A DNA stretch of 64,000 nt, taken from assembly GCF_008831265.1 (NCBI RefSeq), contig NZ_VTTH01000002.1:806001-870000 (forward strand). The letters run 5' to 3'. Position 1 is the first letter of the stretch; every line of letters begins with the position of its first letter. The translations under genes were made by a program, and so were the position numbers. Below the pieces are notes generated by a model. That model had not been told where the DNA came from, searched no databases, and worked only from the letters and a program-made list of their open reading frames with translations. Origin of the DNA: Lacisediminimonas profundi. GTDB lineage: Bacteria; Pseudomonadota; Gammaproteobacteria; Burkholderiales; Burkholderiaceae_D. Below, one piece after another: positions 28,710 through 36,177 of this stretch.

Positions 28710-29102
28710 ATGGAAACAAATTACCCATCGGGCAGCAGCCAGGGCAGTGCCGGCATTCCGGGTTCGCTCACGGGCTCGTCATCATCGGCGAGTGGCAGCG
28801 CAGGCACATCCAGCCGCATGCGTGAGGAGCTGTCCAGCCTGAAGCGCGACCTTGATGACCTGATGTCGCGTGCCGCCGATCTGAGCGAACGTGAACTTTC
28901 CGAAGCACGCGACAAGATGATGATGAAATTCAGCGACATGCGCACCGCTGCGCGCGGCATTGCCGAACAGGCGCGCACACAGATCAACCAGGGCGTGGAC
29001 GTGACCAGCGACTATGTGAAGGAAAAGCCGCTGCAGTCGGTCGCGATTGCCGCTGGCGTCGGGCTGCTGATCGGCGCGTTGATGCGTGTCGGCCGCGATT
29101 AG
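28710..29102 (+). CDS. DUF883 (ElaB/YqjD-type) membrane-anchored protein
   Basis: A 130-residue protein starting at 28710. The first 35 residues are Ser/Gly rich. A charged helical region follows (MREELSSLKRDLDDLMSRAADLSERELSEARDKMMMKFSDM). A single C-terminal membrane anchor has the family pattern SVAIAAGVGLLIGALMRVGRD. ElaB/YqjD proteins bind ribosomes at the inner membrane and are stress- and stationary-phase linked in E. coli. First gene of a three-gene unit with a YqjE-like and a YqjK-like protein, behind a sigma-54 promoter. Confidence 0.9.
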   Translation: METNYPSGSSQGSAGIPGSLTGSSSSASGSAGTSSRMREELSSLKRDLDDLMSRAADLSERELSEARDKMMMKFSDMRTAARGIAEQARTQINQGVDVTSDYVKEKPLQSVAIAAGVGLLIGALMRVGRD

Positions 29103-29136
29103 ATTGTTCGGATTTAACCCTTCCGGAGAAAACAAG

Positions 29137-29505
29137 GTGTTTGAAACCCTGCAGAAATCCAGGCAGATCTCGGTCATTGCGATGGACCGCATCGGCGACT
29201 ACCTCGAACTGCTGCGCATCGAGCTCAAGCTGCAAGGCCGTGAACTTGCCATGCAAATGCTGGGATATGCGGCAGCCGGCCTGTTCGGCCTGCTTGCCAT
29301 CGTTTTCATCGGCATCGCCATCATCCTGAGCTTCTGGGATAGCGAATACTTGCCGGTCGCGGCATGGGGCGTCGTCGCGCTTTACCTCGCTGCAGCGGGC
29401 GCCGGTATCTGGCTTGCCCGTCAGCACACCACCGCGGGATCGGCATTGAACACACTGCGCACCGAGCTCAAACGTGACGTCGAACTGGTCAAGGAAAGCC
29501 TATGA
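29137..29505 (+). CDS. YqjE-like (phage holin superfamily III) membrane protein
   Basis: A 122-residue inner-membrane protein. The GTG at 29137 (VFETLQKSRQISVIAMDRIGDYLELLRIELKLQ) has GGAG 8 bases upstream and is favoured over an upstream start. Two hydrophobic helices follow: GYAAAGLFGLLAIVFIGIAI and AWGVVALYLAAAGAGIWLA. Despite the family name it is not a phage gene; YqjE accompanies YqjD and YqjK in the E. coli chromosome. Overlaps the next gene by four bases. Confidence 0.88.
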   Translation: MFETLQKSRQISVIAMDRIGDYLELLRIELKLQGRELAMQMLGYAAAGLFGLLAIVFIGIAIILSFWDSEYLPVAAWGVVALYLAAAGAGIWLARQHTTAGSALNTLRTELKRDVELVKESL

Positions 29506-30086
29506 AGCATGCAAGCTCGCTGGAGCAGGAACGGCAGGCGCTGCTGGAACAGATTCACGCCAGCCGCGCCGCCTATCGAAGAATGCTGGGCCAGTACGAC
29601 GAACCCGGGCACCCGGACGAAGGCGGCCATGCTGTCAGTCACATCCATCACGCGCAGCACCTGCGCGGCATGCCGGGCGAATTCCCGCGCAGCAGCACCA
29701 TGCGCTGGATCGTATCGCATCCGTATGCGATAGCCGGAGCCGCAGCGGGCTTGGCGGCGCTGATCGCGATAGGGCCGCGCCGCGTATTGACAGTCGTGCG
29801 CTCGGCGCCGGCGGCGGTGCAGCGCAGGTTCCAGGCGCAATCAGAATCCGCCGCCGCGGTGTCGCCGGATACGCCTGTGCCGCCGCCCGAACGCGATGTG
29901 CACGCGGTGCAGCGCGCGTCGATCGGCGCCGCAGCACTGGCCAGTCTTGCTGGCACGGTGTCGATGATCATGCGCGACCCGGCCCGGATGCAGATGGCGG
30001 CACGTGCGGCGAACGCGGCGACCCAATGGTTGCGCAAGCGCCGCCAGCGGCCGGCACAGGCCGGGGGGCGGCGCGCCGGACGCTGA
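29502..30086 (+). CDS. YqjK-like protein
   Basis: A 194-residue protein starting at 29502, with ATGA overlapping the yqjE-like stop. The N-terminus is a charged helix (SLEQERQALLEQIHASRAAYRRML). A single hydrophobic helix follows in the middle (IVSHPYAIAGAAAGLAALIAI), then a long basic and proline-rich tail ending in RRQRPAQAGGRRAGR. The layout and position match YqjK of E. coli, though it is longer. Exact role unknown; presumably it acts with the two upstream membrane proteins. Confidence 0.75.
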   Translation: MKHASSLEQERQALLEQIHASRAAYRRMLGQYDEPGHPDEGGHAVSHIHHAQHLRGMPGEFPRSSTMRWIVSHPYAIAGAAAGLAALIAIGPRRVLTVVRSAPAAVQRRFQAQSESAAAVSPDTPVPPPERDVHAVQRASIGAAALASLAGTVSMIMRDPARMQMAARAANAATQWLRKRRQRPAQAGGRRAGR

Positions 30087-30141
30087 TGGCCTGACAGGCC
30101 GGCACCAGGCAAGATTTGCAGCAGAGACCAACAGCAGACAA

Positions 30142-30183
30142 GTATTGCTCCAGAAGTATTGCGCCGGAAGCATTGCGCCGGAT
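30142..30183. repeat. 14-base tandem repeat
   Basis: Three imperfect copies of a unit near GTATTGCGCCGGAA, at 30142-30155, 30156-30169 and 30170-30183, in the leader of the entericidin-like gene. Confidence 0.9.
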
Positions 30184-30266
30184 ATGCATCGGGCCGGACC
30201 AGGGGAAGTGGCTGCACCAGGCTGCAAGAAGAACTTTTCTCACTCAACCATTCTTGGGGATCCATC

Positions 30267-30410
30267 ATGAAAAAAATCATCGCACTGATTGGCTTGCTCG
30301 CTTTCACTGCAGGCTTGGCTGGCTGCAACACCATGAAGGGCTTGGGGCAGGATGTGGAGCGCGGCGGCGAGAAGGTGCAGGATGCCGCGACCGGCGCGCA
30401 GAAAAAGTAG
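30267..30410 (+). CDS. Entericidin-type small lipoprotein
   Basis: A 47-residue lipoprotein starting at 30267: a Lys-Lys N-terminus, a hydrophobic stretch, the lipobox LAGC and then NTMKGLGQDVERGGEKVQDAA. This matches the EcnA/EcnB family, small envelope lipoproteins linked to stationary-phase lysis and stress. GGGGATCC precedes the ATG as a possible ribosome-binding site. It sits between the YqjE-type operon and the peptide-ligase cluster. Confidence 0.9.
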   Translation: MKKIIALIGLLAFTAGLAGCNTMKGLGQDVERGGEKVQDAATGAQKK

Positions 30411-30499: not shown

Positions 30500-31279
30500 A
30501 TGAACCTGCCTGTGCTACGCCAGACGCCGACTCTGGTCGCAGAAATTCCTGACTCGCTGCGTTTGCCCATGAGCATGGAAGCGCAGCCGGACGGCACCAC
30601 CTGCGGGCCGACCTGCCTGCATGCGGTATATCGCTACTGGAACGATGCCGATCCGCTGCAGGACATCATCACCCGCACCGGCAGGCTGGAACCGGGTGGA
30701 ACCTTTGCCGTCTACCTGGCCTGTGACGCGCTGCGCAGGGGCTATCGGGCCACCATTTACACCTACAACCTGAACGTGTTCGACCCCTCGTGGTTCGCAC
30801 GCACGAACGTCGACCTGGCACAGCGCCTGCTGCTGCAGAGCGAGGCCAAGGCAAGCGACCAGCGGCTGCAGTGGGCGACGCAGGGCTACCTGCAATTCCT
30901 GCAACTCGGTGGCCGCCTGCGCCACATGGACCTGTCCCGCGGGCTGATCCACAACATGCTGCGGCGCAAGCATCCGATCCTGACCGGGCTTTCCTCCACC
31001 TTCCTGTACCGCACCCCGCGCGAATACGGGCCAAACGACCTGCCCGACGATGTGCGTGGCACGCCGGCCGGCCACTTCGTCGTCATCGCCGGCTACGACA
31101 TCGACCGCGGCAAGGTGCTGGTGCTCGATCCATACCAGCAAAACCCGTATGGACAGTCGCATGAATACTGGATCGGGATCGACCGGGTGATCGGCGCAAT
31201 CCTGCTCGGCATCGTCACCCATGACGCCAACCTGCTGGTCATCCACCCGCGCCATCGTCCGCAACAGGCTCTCCCATGA
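30500..31279 (+). CDS. C39-like (papain-fold) cysteine peptidase of the amide-ligase cluster
   Basis: A 259-residue protein with a bacteriocin-processing-like fold. The catalytic cysteine is in DGTTCGPTCLHAVYRYW (Cys35, with Gln29 as a plausible oxyanion residue). The histidine is in GHFVVIAGYD (His192) and the aspartate in VLVLDPYQ (Asp210). There is no signal peptide or membrane helix, so it acts in the cytosol, unlike secretion-linked C39 domains. It is the first gene of four coupled genes, all joined by ATGA overlaps. It may trim or hydrolyse the amide product of the two ligases, or act as a transferase. Confidence 0.83.
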   Translation: MNLPVLRQTPTLVAEIPDSLRLPMSMEAQPDGTTCGPTCLHAVYRYWNDADPLQDIITRTGRLEPGGTFAVYLACDALRRGYRATIYTYNLNVFDPSWFARTNVDLAQRLLLQSEAKASDQRLQWATQGYLQFLQLGGRLRHMDLSRGLIHNMLRRKHPILTGLSSTFLYRTPREYGPNDLPDDVRGTPAGHFVVIAGYDIDRGKVLVLDPYQQNPYGQSHEYWIGIDRVIGAILLGIVTHDANLLVIHPRHRPQQALP

Positions 31280-32481
31280 AGACCCTGCTCGTCGTCAGCG
31301 ATCAGCGCGACTGGCCTGTCACCATCAGGGGCCTGCAGGTGGTCACTGCCTGCCGCTATCTGACGGAGCCTGCATACACCTACTGCAGCGACACCCGGGT
31401 GTTCAACCTCAGCCATTGCATGCGCTACCAGAGCTTCGGCTACTACGTGTCGATGCTGGCCGAGGCGCGCGGGCACCGGCCAGTTCCCGACATCGGGGCA
31501 ATCGAGGACATGCATGCCGGCGGCATGCCGGCGGCCATTCCTGGCAGCCTGGATACACGCTGCTGCCACCGCCGCGAACCGGTGGAAATGCCGACGCTGG
31601 CGATCCTGCGCACCCCAGGCGGCGCGGCCATGCCATCCAACAGTGCCGCGATCCGGAAGTTCATGCAGGCGGCCGACGACATGGGCATGCGCGCGGAAGT
31701 CCTCACCAGGGGCCAGTCCGGCCGGATCGCGGAGTTTGACGCCTTGTTCATTCGCGACACCACCAGGCTCAACCATTACACCTACCGGATCGCGCGCCAC
31801 GCTGAGAACGCCGGACTGGTCGTGATGGATGATCCGGATTCCATCATCCGCTGCAGCAACAAGCTCTTCCTGCACGAACTGCTGACGCGCCACGCGATTC
31901 CGACGCCGAAGACGCTGCTGGTTCACCGCGGCAACCTGGACCAGGTCATGCCGGCGCTTGGCGTTCCCTGCATCCTGAAGCAGCCCGACAGCGCATTCTC
32001 GCTGGGCGTGGTCAAGGTCCGGACGCCACAAGAGTTGCGGGACCGGGCAACGACGCTGTTTGCGAATTCCGAACTGCTGCTGGCGCAGGAATACCTGCCC
32101 ACCGATTTCGACTGGCGCATCGGCATCCTCGACCACAGGTTGCTGTTCGCCTGCCGCTACCACATGGCGCCCGGCCACTGGCAGGTGATCAAGCACGAAG
32201 GCGACAGCCGCTACAGCGAGGGACTGGCGGAGGCAGTGCCGCTGGACCAGGTGCCGCCGGACGTCGTCAGCCTGGCGCTGGCGGCCGCCAGCCTGATCGG
32301 CGACGGCTTCTATGGCGTCGACCTGAAGCAACGCGGCGGCCAGAGCTACGTCATCGAGGTCAACGACAATCCCAACGTGGATGCCGGCAATGAGGATGGC
32401 GTGCTGGGCGATGCGCTGTACCGCCAGGTAGTCGGCGTCATCCGCGCGCGGATCGAGGCTGGCACGGGCTGGCTCTCATGA
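31276..32481 (+). CDS. RimK-like ATP-grasp ligase with RLAN N-terminal domain
   Basis: A 401-residue amide-bond ligase. Residues 1 to about 85 match the RimK-like ATP-grasp N-terminal (RLAN) domain: RVFNLSHCMRYQSFGYYVSMLAEARGHRPVP. The RimK-type ATP-grasp follows from about 155: RDTTRLNHYTYRIARHAENAG, the ATP-binding lysine in CILKQPDSAFSLGVVKV, the QEYLPTDFDWRIGIL strand and the magnesium site GVDLK...YVIEVNDNPN. Such enzymes add glutamate or other amino acids to a carboxylate using ATP. The stop overlaps the GCS2-type gene. Confidence 0.9.
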   Translation: MKTLLVVSDQRDWPVTIRGLQVVTACRYLTEPAYTYCSDTRVFNLSHCMRYQSFGYYVSMLAEARGHRPVPDIGAIEDMHAGGMPAAIPGSLDTRCCHRREPVEMPTLAILRTPGGAAMPSNSAAIRKFMQAADDMGMRAEVLTRGQSGRIAEFDALFIRDTTRLNHYTYRIARHAENAGLVVMDDPDSIIRCSNKLFLHELLTRHAIPTPKTLLVHRGNLDQVMPALGVPCILKQPDSAFSLGVVKVRTPQELRDRATTLFANSELLLAQEYLPTDFDWRIGILDHRLLFACRYHMAPGHWQVIKHEGDSRYSEGLAEAVPLDQVPPDVVSLALAAASLIGDGFYGVDLKQRGGQSYVIEVNDNPNVDAGNEDGVLGDALYRQVVGVIRARIEAGTGWLS

Positions 32482-33740
32482 GCCGTCCCCCGAATTTTCC
32501 GACCCTGACAGCCCTGCCGGCTTTTTCCGCCCAGGGAATCGAGCTGGAGCTGATGATCGTCGATCGCGAGACCCTGGCCCCCCTGCCGATCGCGGACCGG
32601 GTGCTGCATACCGAAGCCGGGGGACGCGTCAATGATGTGTTCCGCGGCATGCTGGGCTGGTCCAATGAACTGGTGCTGCATGTCATCGAGATCAAGAATA
32701 TCGACCCGCGCATTCCGCTGGAGCAGCTCGCGCCAGCCTTCCAGCGCGAGGTGCGCTACCTGAACCGCATGCTGGCCCACTTCCATGCGCGCCTGATGCC
32801 GGGCGGAATGCATCCATGGATGGATCCGAAGACGGAGATGCAGATCTGGCCGCACGACAATGCCGGGCTGTATGCCACCTATGCCAGCATTTTCCAGTGC
32901 CGCTCGCATGGCTGGGCCAACCTGCAGAGCATGCAGATCAACCTGCCCTTTTCCGGGGACGAGGAATTCGCCCGCCTGCACGCTGCGGTGCGGCTGGTGC
33001 TGCCCTTGCTGCCGGCGCTTGCCGCCAGCTCCCCGGTGGCCGATGGCCGCCTGGCATCGGCGCTGGATTACCGGATGCAGGCCTATGCGCATAACGCCGA
33101 CGAAATTCCATCGATAGCCGGGCAAATCATTCCTGAAAATGCGTCCAGCCGGGCTGAATACGAGGAGCGGATTCTCAAGCCCATATACCGCGACCTGGCG
33201 CCACATGACCCCTCCGGCATGCTGCAGCATGAATGGCTGAATTCGCGCGGCGCGATTGCCCGCTTCGATCGCAGCGCGATTGAAATCCGCGTTCTGGATA
33301 CCCAGGAAAATGCGCTGGCCGACATCGCCATCGCCGCCGCCGTGATCGGCATGGTGCGTCGGCTCTACCGGCGCGGCCCGCCGCTGGCGGCCCAGCAAGC
33401 CATGCCGACCGGATCGCTTGCGGCCATCCTGCGTTGCTGCGTGCAGGATGCAGAGCAGGCGCTGATCGAAGACCAGCAATACCTGTCATTGCTGGGCCAT
33501 GCCGGCGGCGCGTGCAGCGCACGCGAACTGCTGGCCTGGCTGATCGGCGAAGTCATCCAGGCCGAGTCATTGCCGGCAACCACGACCCGCAGCCTGAAGG
33601 CAATCAGCGAGCATGGCCCGCTGGCGCGCCGCATCCTGCAAGCGCTGGATGGCGACACCAGCCACAGCCGGCTGGTCGCAGTGTATCGCGAGCTGTGCGA
33701 CTGCCTGGACAGCGGCCGCCTGTTCCTGCCCGCCGCATGA
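32478..33740 (+). CDS. GCS2-family carboxylate-amine ligase
   Basis: A 420-residue member of the glutamate-cysteine ligase type 2 superfamily (glutamine-synthetase-like fold). The N-terminal GIELELMIVDRETLAP has the Glu-x-Glu metal-site motif and the NELVLHVIEIKNIDPR strand is the second. GGMHPWMDP and QSMQINLPFSGDEEFARLH follow, and AIEIRVLDTQENALADIAIAAAV is the usual third glutamate region. It couples a carboxylate to an amine with ATP hydrolysis. Together with the RimK-like enzyme it gives this cluster two different amide ligases. Four-base overlaps lie on both sides. Confidence 0.88.
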   Translation: MSRPPNFPTLTALPAFSAQGIELELMIVDRETLAPLPIADRVLHTEAGGRVNDVFRGMLGWSNELVLHVIEIKNIDPRIPLEQLAPAFQREVRYLNRMLAHFHARLMPGGMHPWMDPKTEMQIWPHDNAGLYATYASIFQCRSHGWANLQSMQINLPFSGDEEFARLHAAVRLVLPLLPALAASSPVADGRLASALDYRMQAYAHNADEIPSIAGQIIPENASSRAEYEERILKPIYRDLAPHDPSGMLQHEWLNSRGAIARFDRSAIEIRVLDTQENALADIAIAAAVIGMVRRLYRRGPPLAAQQAMPTGSLAAILRCCVQDAEQALIEDQQYLSLLGHAGGACSARELLAWLIGEVIQAESLPATTTRSLKAISEHGPLARRILQALDGDTSHSRLVAVYRELCDCLDSGRLFLPAA

Positions 33741-34450
33741 GCCGGTTCTGCATTGTCACCTGCGAACATGGCGGCAACCGCCTGCCCGGCCGTTTTCGTG
33801 CGCTGTTCCGCGAGCATTGGAAGCTGCTGCACAGTCATGCGGGATACGACAAGGGCACGCTGCGGCTGGCGCGGGTTCTGGCCGCAGCACTTGGCGGCGC
33901 TCACCACTATGCGGTGTTGAGCCGCCTGCTGGTTGACCTCAATCGTTCGATTGACCACCCGGGGATTTTCTCCCCCATCACTGAAGCGCTGGATCCCGAG
34001 TTGCAGCAGGAAATCCTCGCGCAGTATTACCACCCTTACCGTGAAGCTGTGGAGCGATCGGTAGCGGCCGCCATCTCACGCGGCGAATCGGTGCTGCACC
34101 TGTCCTGCCACAGCTTCGCCGAAGAACTGAACGGTGAAAAAAGGGATGCCCAGGTGGGCCTGCTGTTCGATCCGCTCCGGCGTCAGGAGGCCATGCTCTG
34201 CGAGCGATGGCAGCAAGCCCTGGAGGCACGCATGCCAGGACGTGCCGTGCGCCTGAATTACCCCTACCCCGGCGTCGCCGACGGACTGACGACCAGCCTG
34301 CGCGGCCACTATCCCGACCCTCTTTACGCCGGGATTGAGCTGGAGGTAAGGCAGGACGTGGTGTGCGACCCGGGGCTGCGCCTGGCCCTCATGGATACGC
34401 TGTATGGGCTCGATACCTGGATCCGGCGTGACGGTCAGGCGATTCGATAG
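33737..34450 (+). CDS. N-formylglutamate amidohydrolase-like protein
   Basis: A 237-residue member of the N-formylglutamate amidohydrolase family (zinc amidohydrolase/peptidase fold). The start at 33737 overlaps the GCS2-type gene. Conserved features are VTCEHGGNRLPGRF at the N-terminus (His of the zinc site), SHAGYDKGTLRLARVLA, LLVDLNRSIDHP, the LHLSCHSFAEEL strand with His, and YPYPGVADGLTTSLRGHY. No histidine-utilisation genes are nearby. The pairing with two ligases and a peptidase therefore points to cleavage of an amide intermediate rather than formylglutamate. Confidence 0.88.
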   Translation: MSRFCIVTCEHGGNRLPGRFRALFREHWKLLHSHAGYDKGTLRLARVLAAALGGAHHYAVLSRLLVDLNRSIDHPGIFSPITEALDPELQQEILAQYYHPYREAVERSVAAAISRGESVLHLSCHSFAEELNGEKRDAQVGLLFDPLRRQEAMLCERWQQALEARMPGRAVRLNYPYPGVADGLTTSLRGHYPDPLYAGIELEVRQDVVCDPGLRLALMDTLYGLDTWIRRDGQAIR

Positions 34451-34757: not shown

Positions 34758-35960
34758 TCACCCGATATCTACCCGCCGTGGCGGCCGTGCCGCAAACGGC
34801 ATCGGAACGCGCACTTCGAGCACGCCGTCATGCATGCTGGCGCTGGCCTGGTCCGGATCGACCCCGTGCGGCAGAGGAATCATCCGATAGAAGCGTCCGT
34901 AGCTCCGCTCCGACCGCCGGTAGCCCTCGCGCGCATGTGCCTCCGCCCGCTCATGCCGTTCACCCTCGATCGTGAGCCGGTCATGCTGGACATCGACATG
35001 CACCTCCTCGCGCTTGACCCCGGGCAGGTCGGCGCATACCAGCAGCGCATCCTCCAGTTGCAGTATCTCGACCTGTGGCATCCACTTGCCGGCCATCCCG
35101 CCCTGCCCCTGGCCAAAGCGCGAGGCCATCGGGCGGCCGATGAATCGTTCGAACAGTTGATCCATCTCGCCAGTCATGCGGCGCATCATGCCGATCGGCT
35201 CCTCCAGCGCCGGGAACTGGTTGCGCAACCACGCCTGGGCGCCACCCAGGGCGGATGATGCCCCAGCGTGCGATCCATGCTCGCCGGCCCCGGGAGAGGC
35301 GCCCTCGCCGCCCTGCGCGCTGGCAGGCGATGGCCGCGAACCACCCTCGGAGGCGCCACGTGCGCCACCGAATGCACTCTCGTCGGTCCACGATTCCCAG
35401 CGTCCGGATGGATGACTGGCCGATCCGCCGTGCTCCTCCATGCGAGCACCCTGGAAGACCGCCTTGTCCGCGGTGGCCGTGGCATCTTGCGTTGCGCCCA
35501 GCGGCAAAGCATGTCCGCCATGGATCTCGCCGCGCCACGCGCCAGACTCCCGGCCCTGCATTTCGATCATCCTCTTGAATCGTTCAAGGTCCTGGCCAAT
35601 GCGCTCGGCGGCCTCCTGCACGGCAGCTTCCCCGGCATCGGCGGCCGGCTCGAATTCCATCAGCATCCGCATCCGGGTCTTGTCGCCGAGCAGCGGCTCG
35701 AAGCTGATGCTTCCGCTGTGATGCGGCCCGCTGGTGTCGCGCCACGCGATAAGCTGGTCCGGCACCTGCTCGGTGATCTCGGACTCCCACTCGGTTTCCA
35801 GACCGTGGCGATGCGCGCGCCACCGCAAATGAGCCGCATCGAGCTGGCGAACTTCGCGCACGCCGTCCATGAAGCGCGGAAAATCTTCAAACTGTGTCCA
35901 CTGGTTATAGACCGTCCTCAGCGGAGCGCTGACATCGATCGATTGCTCTACTCTTGCCAT
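34758..35960 (-). CDS. SRPBCC (cyclase/dehydrase-like) and Hsp20 fusion protein
   Basis: A 400-residue fusion of two domains that are usually separate. Residues 1 to about 135 are an SRPBCC ligand-binding domain (MARVEQSIDVSAPLRTVYNQWTQFEDFPRFM, then WRDTSGPHHSGSISFEPL and the C-terminal helix EAAERIGQDLERFKRMIE). Residues 140-240 are a flexible Gly/Ser/Ala linker. Residues about 290-395 are an alpha-crystallin domain (VEILQLEDALLVCADLPGVKREEVHV, RLTIEGERHE, ASMHDGVLEVRVP). The start at 35960 has an AGGAG Shine-Dalgarno. It suggests a small heat-shock chaperone with a lipid- or hydrophobe-binding partner domain. A repeat element lies just past its stop. Confidence 0.92.
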   Translation of the reverse strand: MARVEQSIDVSAPLRTVYNQWTQFEDFPRFMDGVREVRQLDAAHLRWRAHRHGLETEWESEITEQVPDQLIAWRDTSGPHHSGSISFEPLLGDKTRMRMLMEFEPAADAGEAAVQEAAERIGQDLERFKRMIEMQGRESGAWRGEIHGGHALPLGATQDATATADKAVFQGARMEEHGGSASHPSGRWESWTDESAFGGARGASEGGSRPSPASAQGGEGASPGAGEHGSHAGASSALGGAQAWLRNQFPALEEPIGMMRRMTGEMDQLFERFIGRPMASRFGQGQGGMAGKWMPQVEILQLEDALLVCADLPGVKREEVHVDVQHDRLTIEGERHERAEAHAREGYRRSERSYGRFYRMIPLPHGVDPDQASASMHDGVLEVRVPMPFAARPPRRVDIG

Positions 35961-36177
35961 GGCGAACTCCTCAGGTGCTGCAACAATCAACGGAGCAAAT
36001 TGCGCCTCCTTCCAATTGAGCCTCCGGATGAAGCAAAGTTTCCTGGCATGCCAGCCCAGTTCTCTTTCGGACTGCCCGTCCCTGACCCGCCGCGCCAAGG
36101 CGTCGTGACCGGCGGCCGGCGGCTCCGGCAGTCACGCCCGCCCGCCCCCGTTGCGCACATCATCAGGCAAGTGTGCT

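Follow-up and report, generated by a model that had tools for sequence, protein, structure and literature searches.

Gene content of the locus

The window, i.e., the whole stretch of 64,000 nucleotides analysed here, belongs to a host genome of 4.5 Mb in 17 contigs and carries a full C39–RLAN–GCS2–FGase cassette, with the four genes coupled on one strand in the set order (Table 1). An earlier note on this DNA had described four coupled genes with an ATGA overlap at each of the three junctions, and the overlaps were confirmed at 31276, 32478 and 33737. The RLAN–GCS2 junction is the tightest of the cassette, and 41 of 63 relatives share its 4-base overlap. The cassette adjoins a stress/envelope module at 28773–30410, in which genes for a DUF883 protein, a Phage_holin_3_6 protein, a 194-aa protein and an entericidin follow each other in a row.

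Table 1. Coordinates of the cassette and its neighbouring features in the window
Feature	Position	Strand	Basis
Upstream gene pair: DUF883 (ElaB/YqjD-like), then Phage_holin_3_6	28773–29505	+	
C39-like papain-fold cysteine peptidase, 259 aa	30500–31279	+	Pfam Peptidase_C39_2, catalytic triad, fold search
ATGA overlap, C39/RLAN ligase	31276–31279	+	
RLAN + RimK-type ATP-grasp ligase, 401 aa	31276–32481	+	Pfam RLAN and RimK, alignment
ATGA overlap, RLAN ligase/GCS2	32478–32481	+	
GCS2-type carboxylate-amine ligase, 420 aa	32478–33740	+	Pfam GCS2
ATGA overlap, GCS2/FGase	33737–33740	+	
N-formylglutamate-amidohydrolase-like (FGase) hydrolase, 237 aa	33737–34450	+	Pfam FGase
SRPBCC (polyketide cyclase-like) + HSP20/alpha-crystallin fusion	34758–36098	−	

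The four enzymes

The C39-like protein matches Pfam Peptidase_C39_2 with 38.3 bits (cut-off 24) and retains the predicted catalytic residues Cys35, His192 and Asp210, a triad that is invariant in 35 relatives. A fold search with its predicted model returned the isopeptidase PeiR as the top match, together with C39 domains, and the phytochelatin synthase Alr0975 at a lower rank (E 3e-3), the TM-scores of these matches being only 0.4–0.5. Phytochelatin synthase also appeared as a sub-threshold Pfam match.

The second protein combines an RLAN domain (PF14401, 66.1 bits, cut-off 25) with a RimK-type ATP-grasp domain (PF08443, 45.5 bits, cut-off 21), the latter being complete with the motifs KQP, GVD and IEVNDNPN. 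Its scores against the NCBIfam RimK models lie below their cut-offs (rimK_fam, 72.4 against 143.4; PRK10446, 29.9 against 331). The RLAN domain spans only Pfam positions 3–68 of 150, and alignment showed that the second half, about 85 residues, is absent, as it is in two other host-family genomes (G062, whose locus is L003, and G021), whereas the genus mate L116 has a full-length RLAN domain. This second-half loss, noted for the window (31276–32481) and for loci L117 and L118, is in frame, with the ATP-grasp part under purifying selection. In a tree built from the ATP-grasp part, the ligase of the window clusters with its genus mates (100/100) and away from the other two short-RLAN ligases, so the alignments and tree indicate that half of the RLAN domain was lost at least twice independently within the host family; the simplest reading would be that this half is dispensable. 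A fold model built from the full-length relative L002 (pLDDT 85) has RimK, ArgX and LysX as its nearest folds and, among the PDB matches listed, was matched only as an ATP-grasp enzyme, which leaves the RLAN part unexplained.

The third protein matches GCS2 with 71.9 bits (cut-off 21) and retains the predicted catalytic residues Glu22, Glu24, Arg265 and Glu269. It falls below every NCBIfam cut-off for glutamate-cysteine ligases and YbdK, reaching 44.1 against 176.4 for the YbdK family and less for the others, and plant glutamate-cysteine ligase is a weak relative. The fourth protein matches FGase with 86.2 bits (cut-off 28.9) and contains the predicted catalytic residues Cys9-Glu10-His11, His121/125 and Glu203; its nearest solved sequence is Atu2144 (2odf).

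Catalytic motifs are thus kept in all four proteins, and the claim of the earlier note that the active sites are intact stands to this extent, although the RLAN domain of the ligase is shortened. None of the four exceeds the cut-off of any NCBIfam model, and none was found to be a known single-function protein such as an enzyme of histidine degradation. Histidine utilisation was rejected, as the FGase-like protein scores only 16.5 bits against the HutG model (TIGR02017, cut-off 278.75). PADLOC returned no anti-phage defence model for any of the four genes, and a defence role was rejected on this basis.

Conservation of the four-gene unit

A search of 84,980 genomes used the RLAN ligase alone as the query, so that the neighbouring genes formed no part of it. 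The search found relatives of the ligase in at least 564 places. All four genes occur in the set order in 46 of the best 80 of these loci, and C39–RLAN–GCS2 occurs in a further 18 of the 80, some of which are cut by contig ends. The carriers span at least six phyla, including Pseudomonadota, Bacteroidota, Planctomycetota, Desulfobacterota-type deltaproteobacteria and Verrucomicrobiota, as read from record titles, which can err for metagenome-assembled genomes (MAGs; two read Klebsiella). Among 97 genomes sampled from the host family, strong matches were found to RLAN in 19, GCS2 in 19, C39 in 18 and FGase in 19, with all four in 17. One apparent exception, G066 from the same genus as the window, counts as lacking C39 and RLAN because its contig stops inside the RLAN gene. 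The presence of one cassette gene predicts the rest (pairwise Fisher P 7e-15 to 1e-18), though these values ignore shared ancestry and therefore overstate independence. The same-order co-occurrence that the earlier note had named as its check was thus found both across phyla and within the host family. With no known single-function protein among the four either, the pathway idea of that note withstood both of its refuting conditions.

Evidence from sequence divergence points in the same direction. The distances of the four proteins correlate across 12 loci (r 0.75–0.93), and dN/dS values relative to the genus mate L116 (C39, 0.09; RLAN, 0.24; GCS2, 0.24; FGase, 0.15) show purifying selection. 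Two Nitrosospira genomes have a C39–GCS2–FGase operon with the RLAN ligase at a separate place, showing that the parts are retained despite physical separation. In 12 loci with more than 4.6 kb of sequence downstream, no FGase gene lies beside GCS2, which makes FGase an optional member. Among 120 genomes sampled from the phylum, a strong GCS2 match was found only in the genome of the window itself, so the distribution is patchy.

Across phyla, nothing besides the four genes is conserved around the cassette. A short BLAST comparison of 394 small ORFs lying upstream in 72 loci, which may miss very divergent peptides, found no shared precursor peptide. Processing of a RiPP or bacteriocin was rejected, there being neither a conserved precursor in the 72 loci nor an ABC transporter. 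The cassette is a genuine conserved unit, associated far beyond chance: gene families, order, coupling, selection and co-inheritance are all observed, and neither a precursor gene nor a transporter gene is conserved alongside. That the four are unrelated chance neighbours, or single-function enzymes such as those of histidine degradation, has next to no probability left, since each broad family is common on its own but the order is kept across phyla, the genes co-occur in the host family and the HutG score is far too low; chance adjacency is refuted by these data.

Partial cassettes were also observed. A plasmid record of Legionella adelaidensis contains RimK–GCS2–FGase in order, annotated by family names alone, and one host-family genome of about 93% completeness (G036, locus L138) has a strong cassette-type FGase with the other three genes absent. 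Some genomes, several of them incomplete MAGs, carry an RLAN ligase without GCS2, and the neighbourhoods of these lone ligases share no common partner gene. One lies on a Pseudomonas aeruginosa plasmid (L123, 7908–9497) beside genes for glutamate/aspartate transport, gamma-glutamyltransferase and asparaginase, and presumably corresponds to PA1345 on the PAO1 map. In a Coxiellaceae locus (L023, 6001–7951), a GNAT acetyltransferase gene directly follows the RLAN ligase in place of the cassette genes. A divergent RLAN ligase in G052 (L120/L139) is spread across three overlapping frames, as a pseudogene or through sequencing errors, and the other cassette genes are absent there.

Flanking genes and the stress context

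The DUF883–holin pair, which we take to be of the kind called YqjD and YqjE in E. coli, usually precedes the cassette in the host family and lies upstream of C39 in at least nine loci there (L116, L117, L121, L126–L128 and L131–L133), and several host-family genomes have relatives of the SRPBCC–HSP20 fusion on the downstream side. In E. coli, the yqjC/yqjD transcripts depend on RpoS, and YqjD is a ribosome-binding protein (PMC10746276). In the host family, the cassette would probably be expressed in stationary phase or under stress. The role under stress suggested by the earlier note is in keeping with these conserved stress-module neighbours; however, the DUF883–holin association was seen only within the host family and may reflect inherited position rather than function, so that its support for a stress or stationary-phase role is indirect.

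Proposed pathway and alternative readings

The reading we favour, to which we assign about an even chance, is that the cassette encodes a cytosolic, self-contained pathway for assembling and trimming a small glutamate-containing metabolite, i.e., a peptide or amide of the gamma-glutamyl type. The substrates, reaction order and product that we infer are as follows. The GCS2 enzyme would activate the side-chain (gamma) carboxylate of glutamate or a relative with ATP and couple it to an amine, after which the RLAN/RimK ATP-grasp enzyme would append a second residue. This order is drawn by analogy with glutathione, which is made by a GCS-type ligase and then an ATP-grasp ligase. The C39-like enzyme may cleave or transfer at one of the new bonds, and the FGase-like enzyme may take an acyl group off the glutamyl moiety or hydrolyse one of its amides; in this way the product would mature or be recycled. 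Two observations count against this small-molecule reading, namely, that RimK, to which the ligase is closest among proteins of known fold, has a protein as its substrate, and that lone RLAN ligases exist, showing that the ligase can serve another use.

A second and distinctly less probable reading is reversible protein modification, in which the RimK-like and GCS2 ligases would attach alpha- and gamma-linked glutamate-type residues to a housekeeping protein, to be taken off again by the C39-like enzyme and the carboxypeptidase-like FGase. The nearest folds of the ligase have protein substrates (ribosomal protein S6 for RimK, the carrier LysW for ArgX and LysX), the best C39 fold match is an isopeptidase, and the cassette shows a conserved proximity to a YqjD-like gene with a ribosome-binding relative in E. 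coli; all three points are consistent with a protein target. However, no gene for a carrier or target protein is conserved beside the cassette, and the TM-scores of the C39 matches are low. To our knowledge, the GCS2 enzymes characterised so far also act on free glutamate or other free amino acids and small amines. The fold matches of the ligase and of the C39-like protein do not separate the readings considered here. A more specific form, which we consider slightly more doubtful still, is a bacterial write-and-erase protein glutamylation, in which alpha- and gamma-linked residues would be written by two different ligases and erased by two hydrolases unrelated to each other. Its logic resembles eukaryotic tubulin glutamylation, which pairs ATP-grasp ligases with carboxypeptidases.

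It is improbable that the cassette forms a glutathione-like thiol route, with GCS2 coupling a gamma-glutamyl group to cysteine, the ATP-grasp enzyme extending the product by a third residue, and a role like that of phytochelatin synthase for the C39-like enzyme. The weak relationship of GCS2 to plant glutamate-cysteine ligase and the Alr0975 and sub-threshold Pfam matches of the C39-like protein would fit such a route, but the phytochelatin matches rank below the C39 and isopeptidase matches, GCS2 lies far below the glutamate-cysteine ligase cut-offs, and a glutathione synthetase is encoded apart from the cassette, on contig C4 (GSH-S_ATP, 249 bits). With GshB encoded elsewhere and GCS2 below all glutamate-cysteine ligase cut-offs, glutathione was rejected as the main role.

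Salvage or detoxification is less probable again. In this reading, ligation would place a glutamate tag on an unwanted amine, and the products would later be freed by the hydrolases. Gamma-glutamylation serves as a tag for amine use in other pathways, and the lone ligase on the Pseudomonas plasmid has genes for glutamate transport and gamma-glutamyltransferase close by; against this, the cassette has no oxidase, dehydrogenase or transporter gene as a conserved companion.

Comparison with known systems

Several known systems share parts with the cassette. GshA/GshB with phytochelatin synthase has, like the cassette, a GCS-type ligase, then an ATP-grasp ligase, and a papain-fold enzyme; however, the ligases of the cassette belong to other subfamilies, GshB is encoded elsewhere in the genome, and FGase has no counterpart in the glutathione route. 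The alpha-amino-acid ligases RimK, LysX and ArgX share the ATP-grasp fold and motifs with the RLAN ligase, which differs in its scores far below the family cut-offs, its extra RLAN domain and the absence of an adjoining S6 or LysW gene. The double-glycine peptidases of bacteriocin exporters share the C39 fold and triad, whereas the cassette peptidase is free-standing, with neither an ABC transporter nor a conserved precursor ORF. HutG and the COG3931-type N-formylglutamate amidohydrolases share the FGase fold, and Atu2144 (2odf) is a clear relative, but the cassette FGase adjoins ligases rather than hut genes and, unlike true HutG, falls below the NCBIfam HutG cut-off.

Searches of open papers found no characterised product or member of the cassette. 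Iyer, Abhiman, Burroughs and Aravind reportedly predicted, by comparative genomics in 2009, RLAN-ATP-grasp/GCS2 neighbourhoods with a role in peptide synthesis or modification, to which we know of no assigned product. The cassette has its ligase families in common with these neighbourhoods, and is a member, built of known families, of a known but uncharacterised kind. As a four-enzyme unit whose order is kept across phyla, with no extra conserved gene and no product found in the papers searched, it points to a metabolite or a modification that current biochemistry does not yet include, and, being complete, small, widespread and under selection, it is directly testable.
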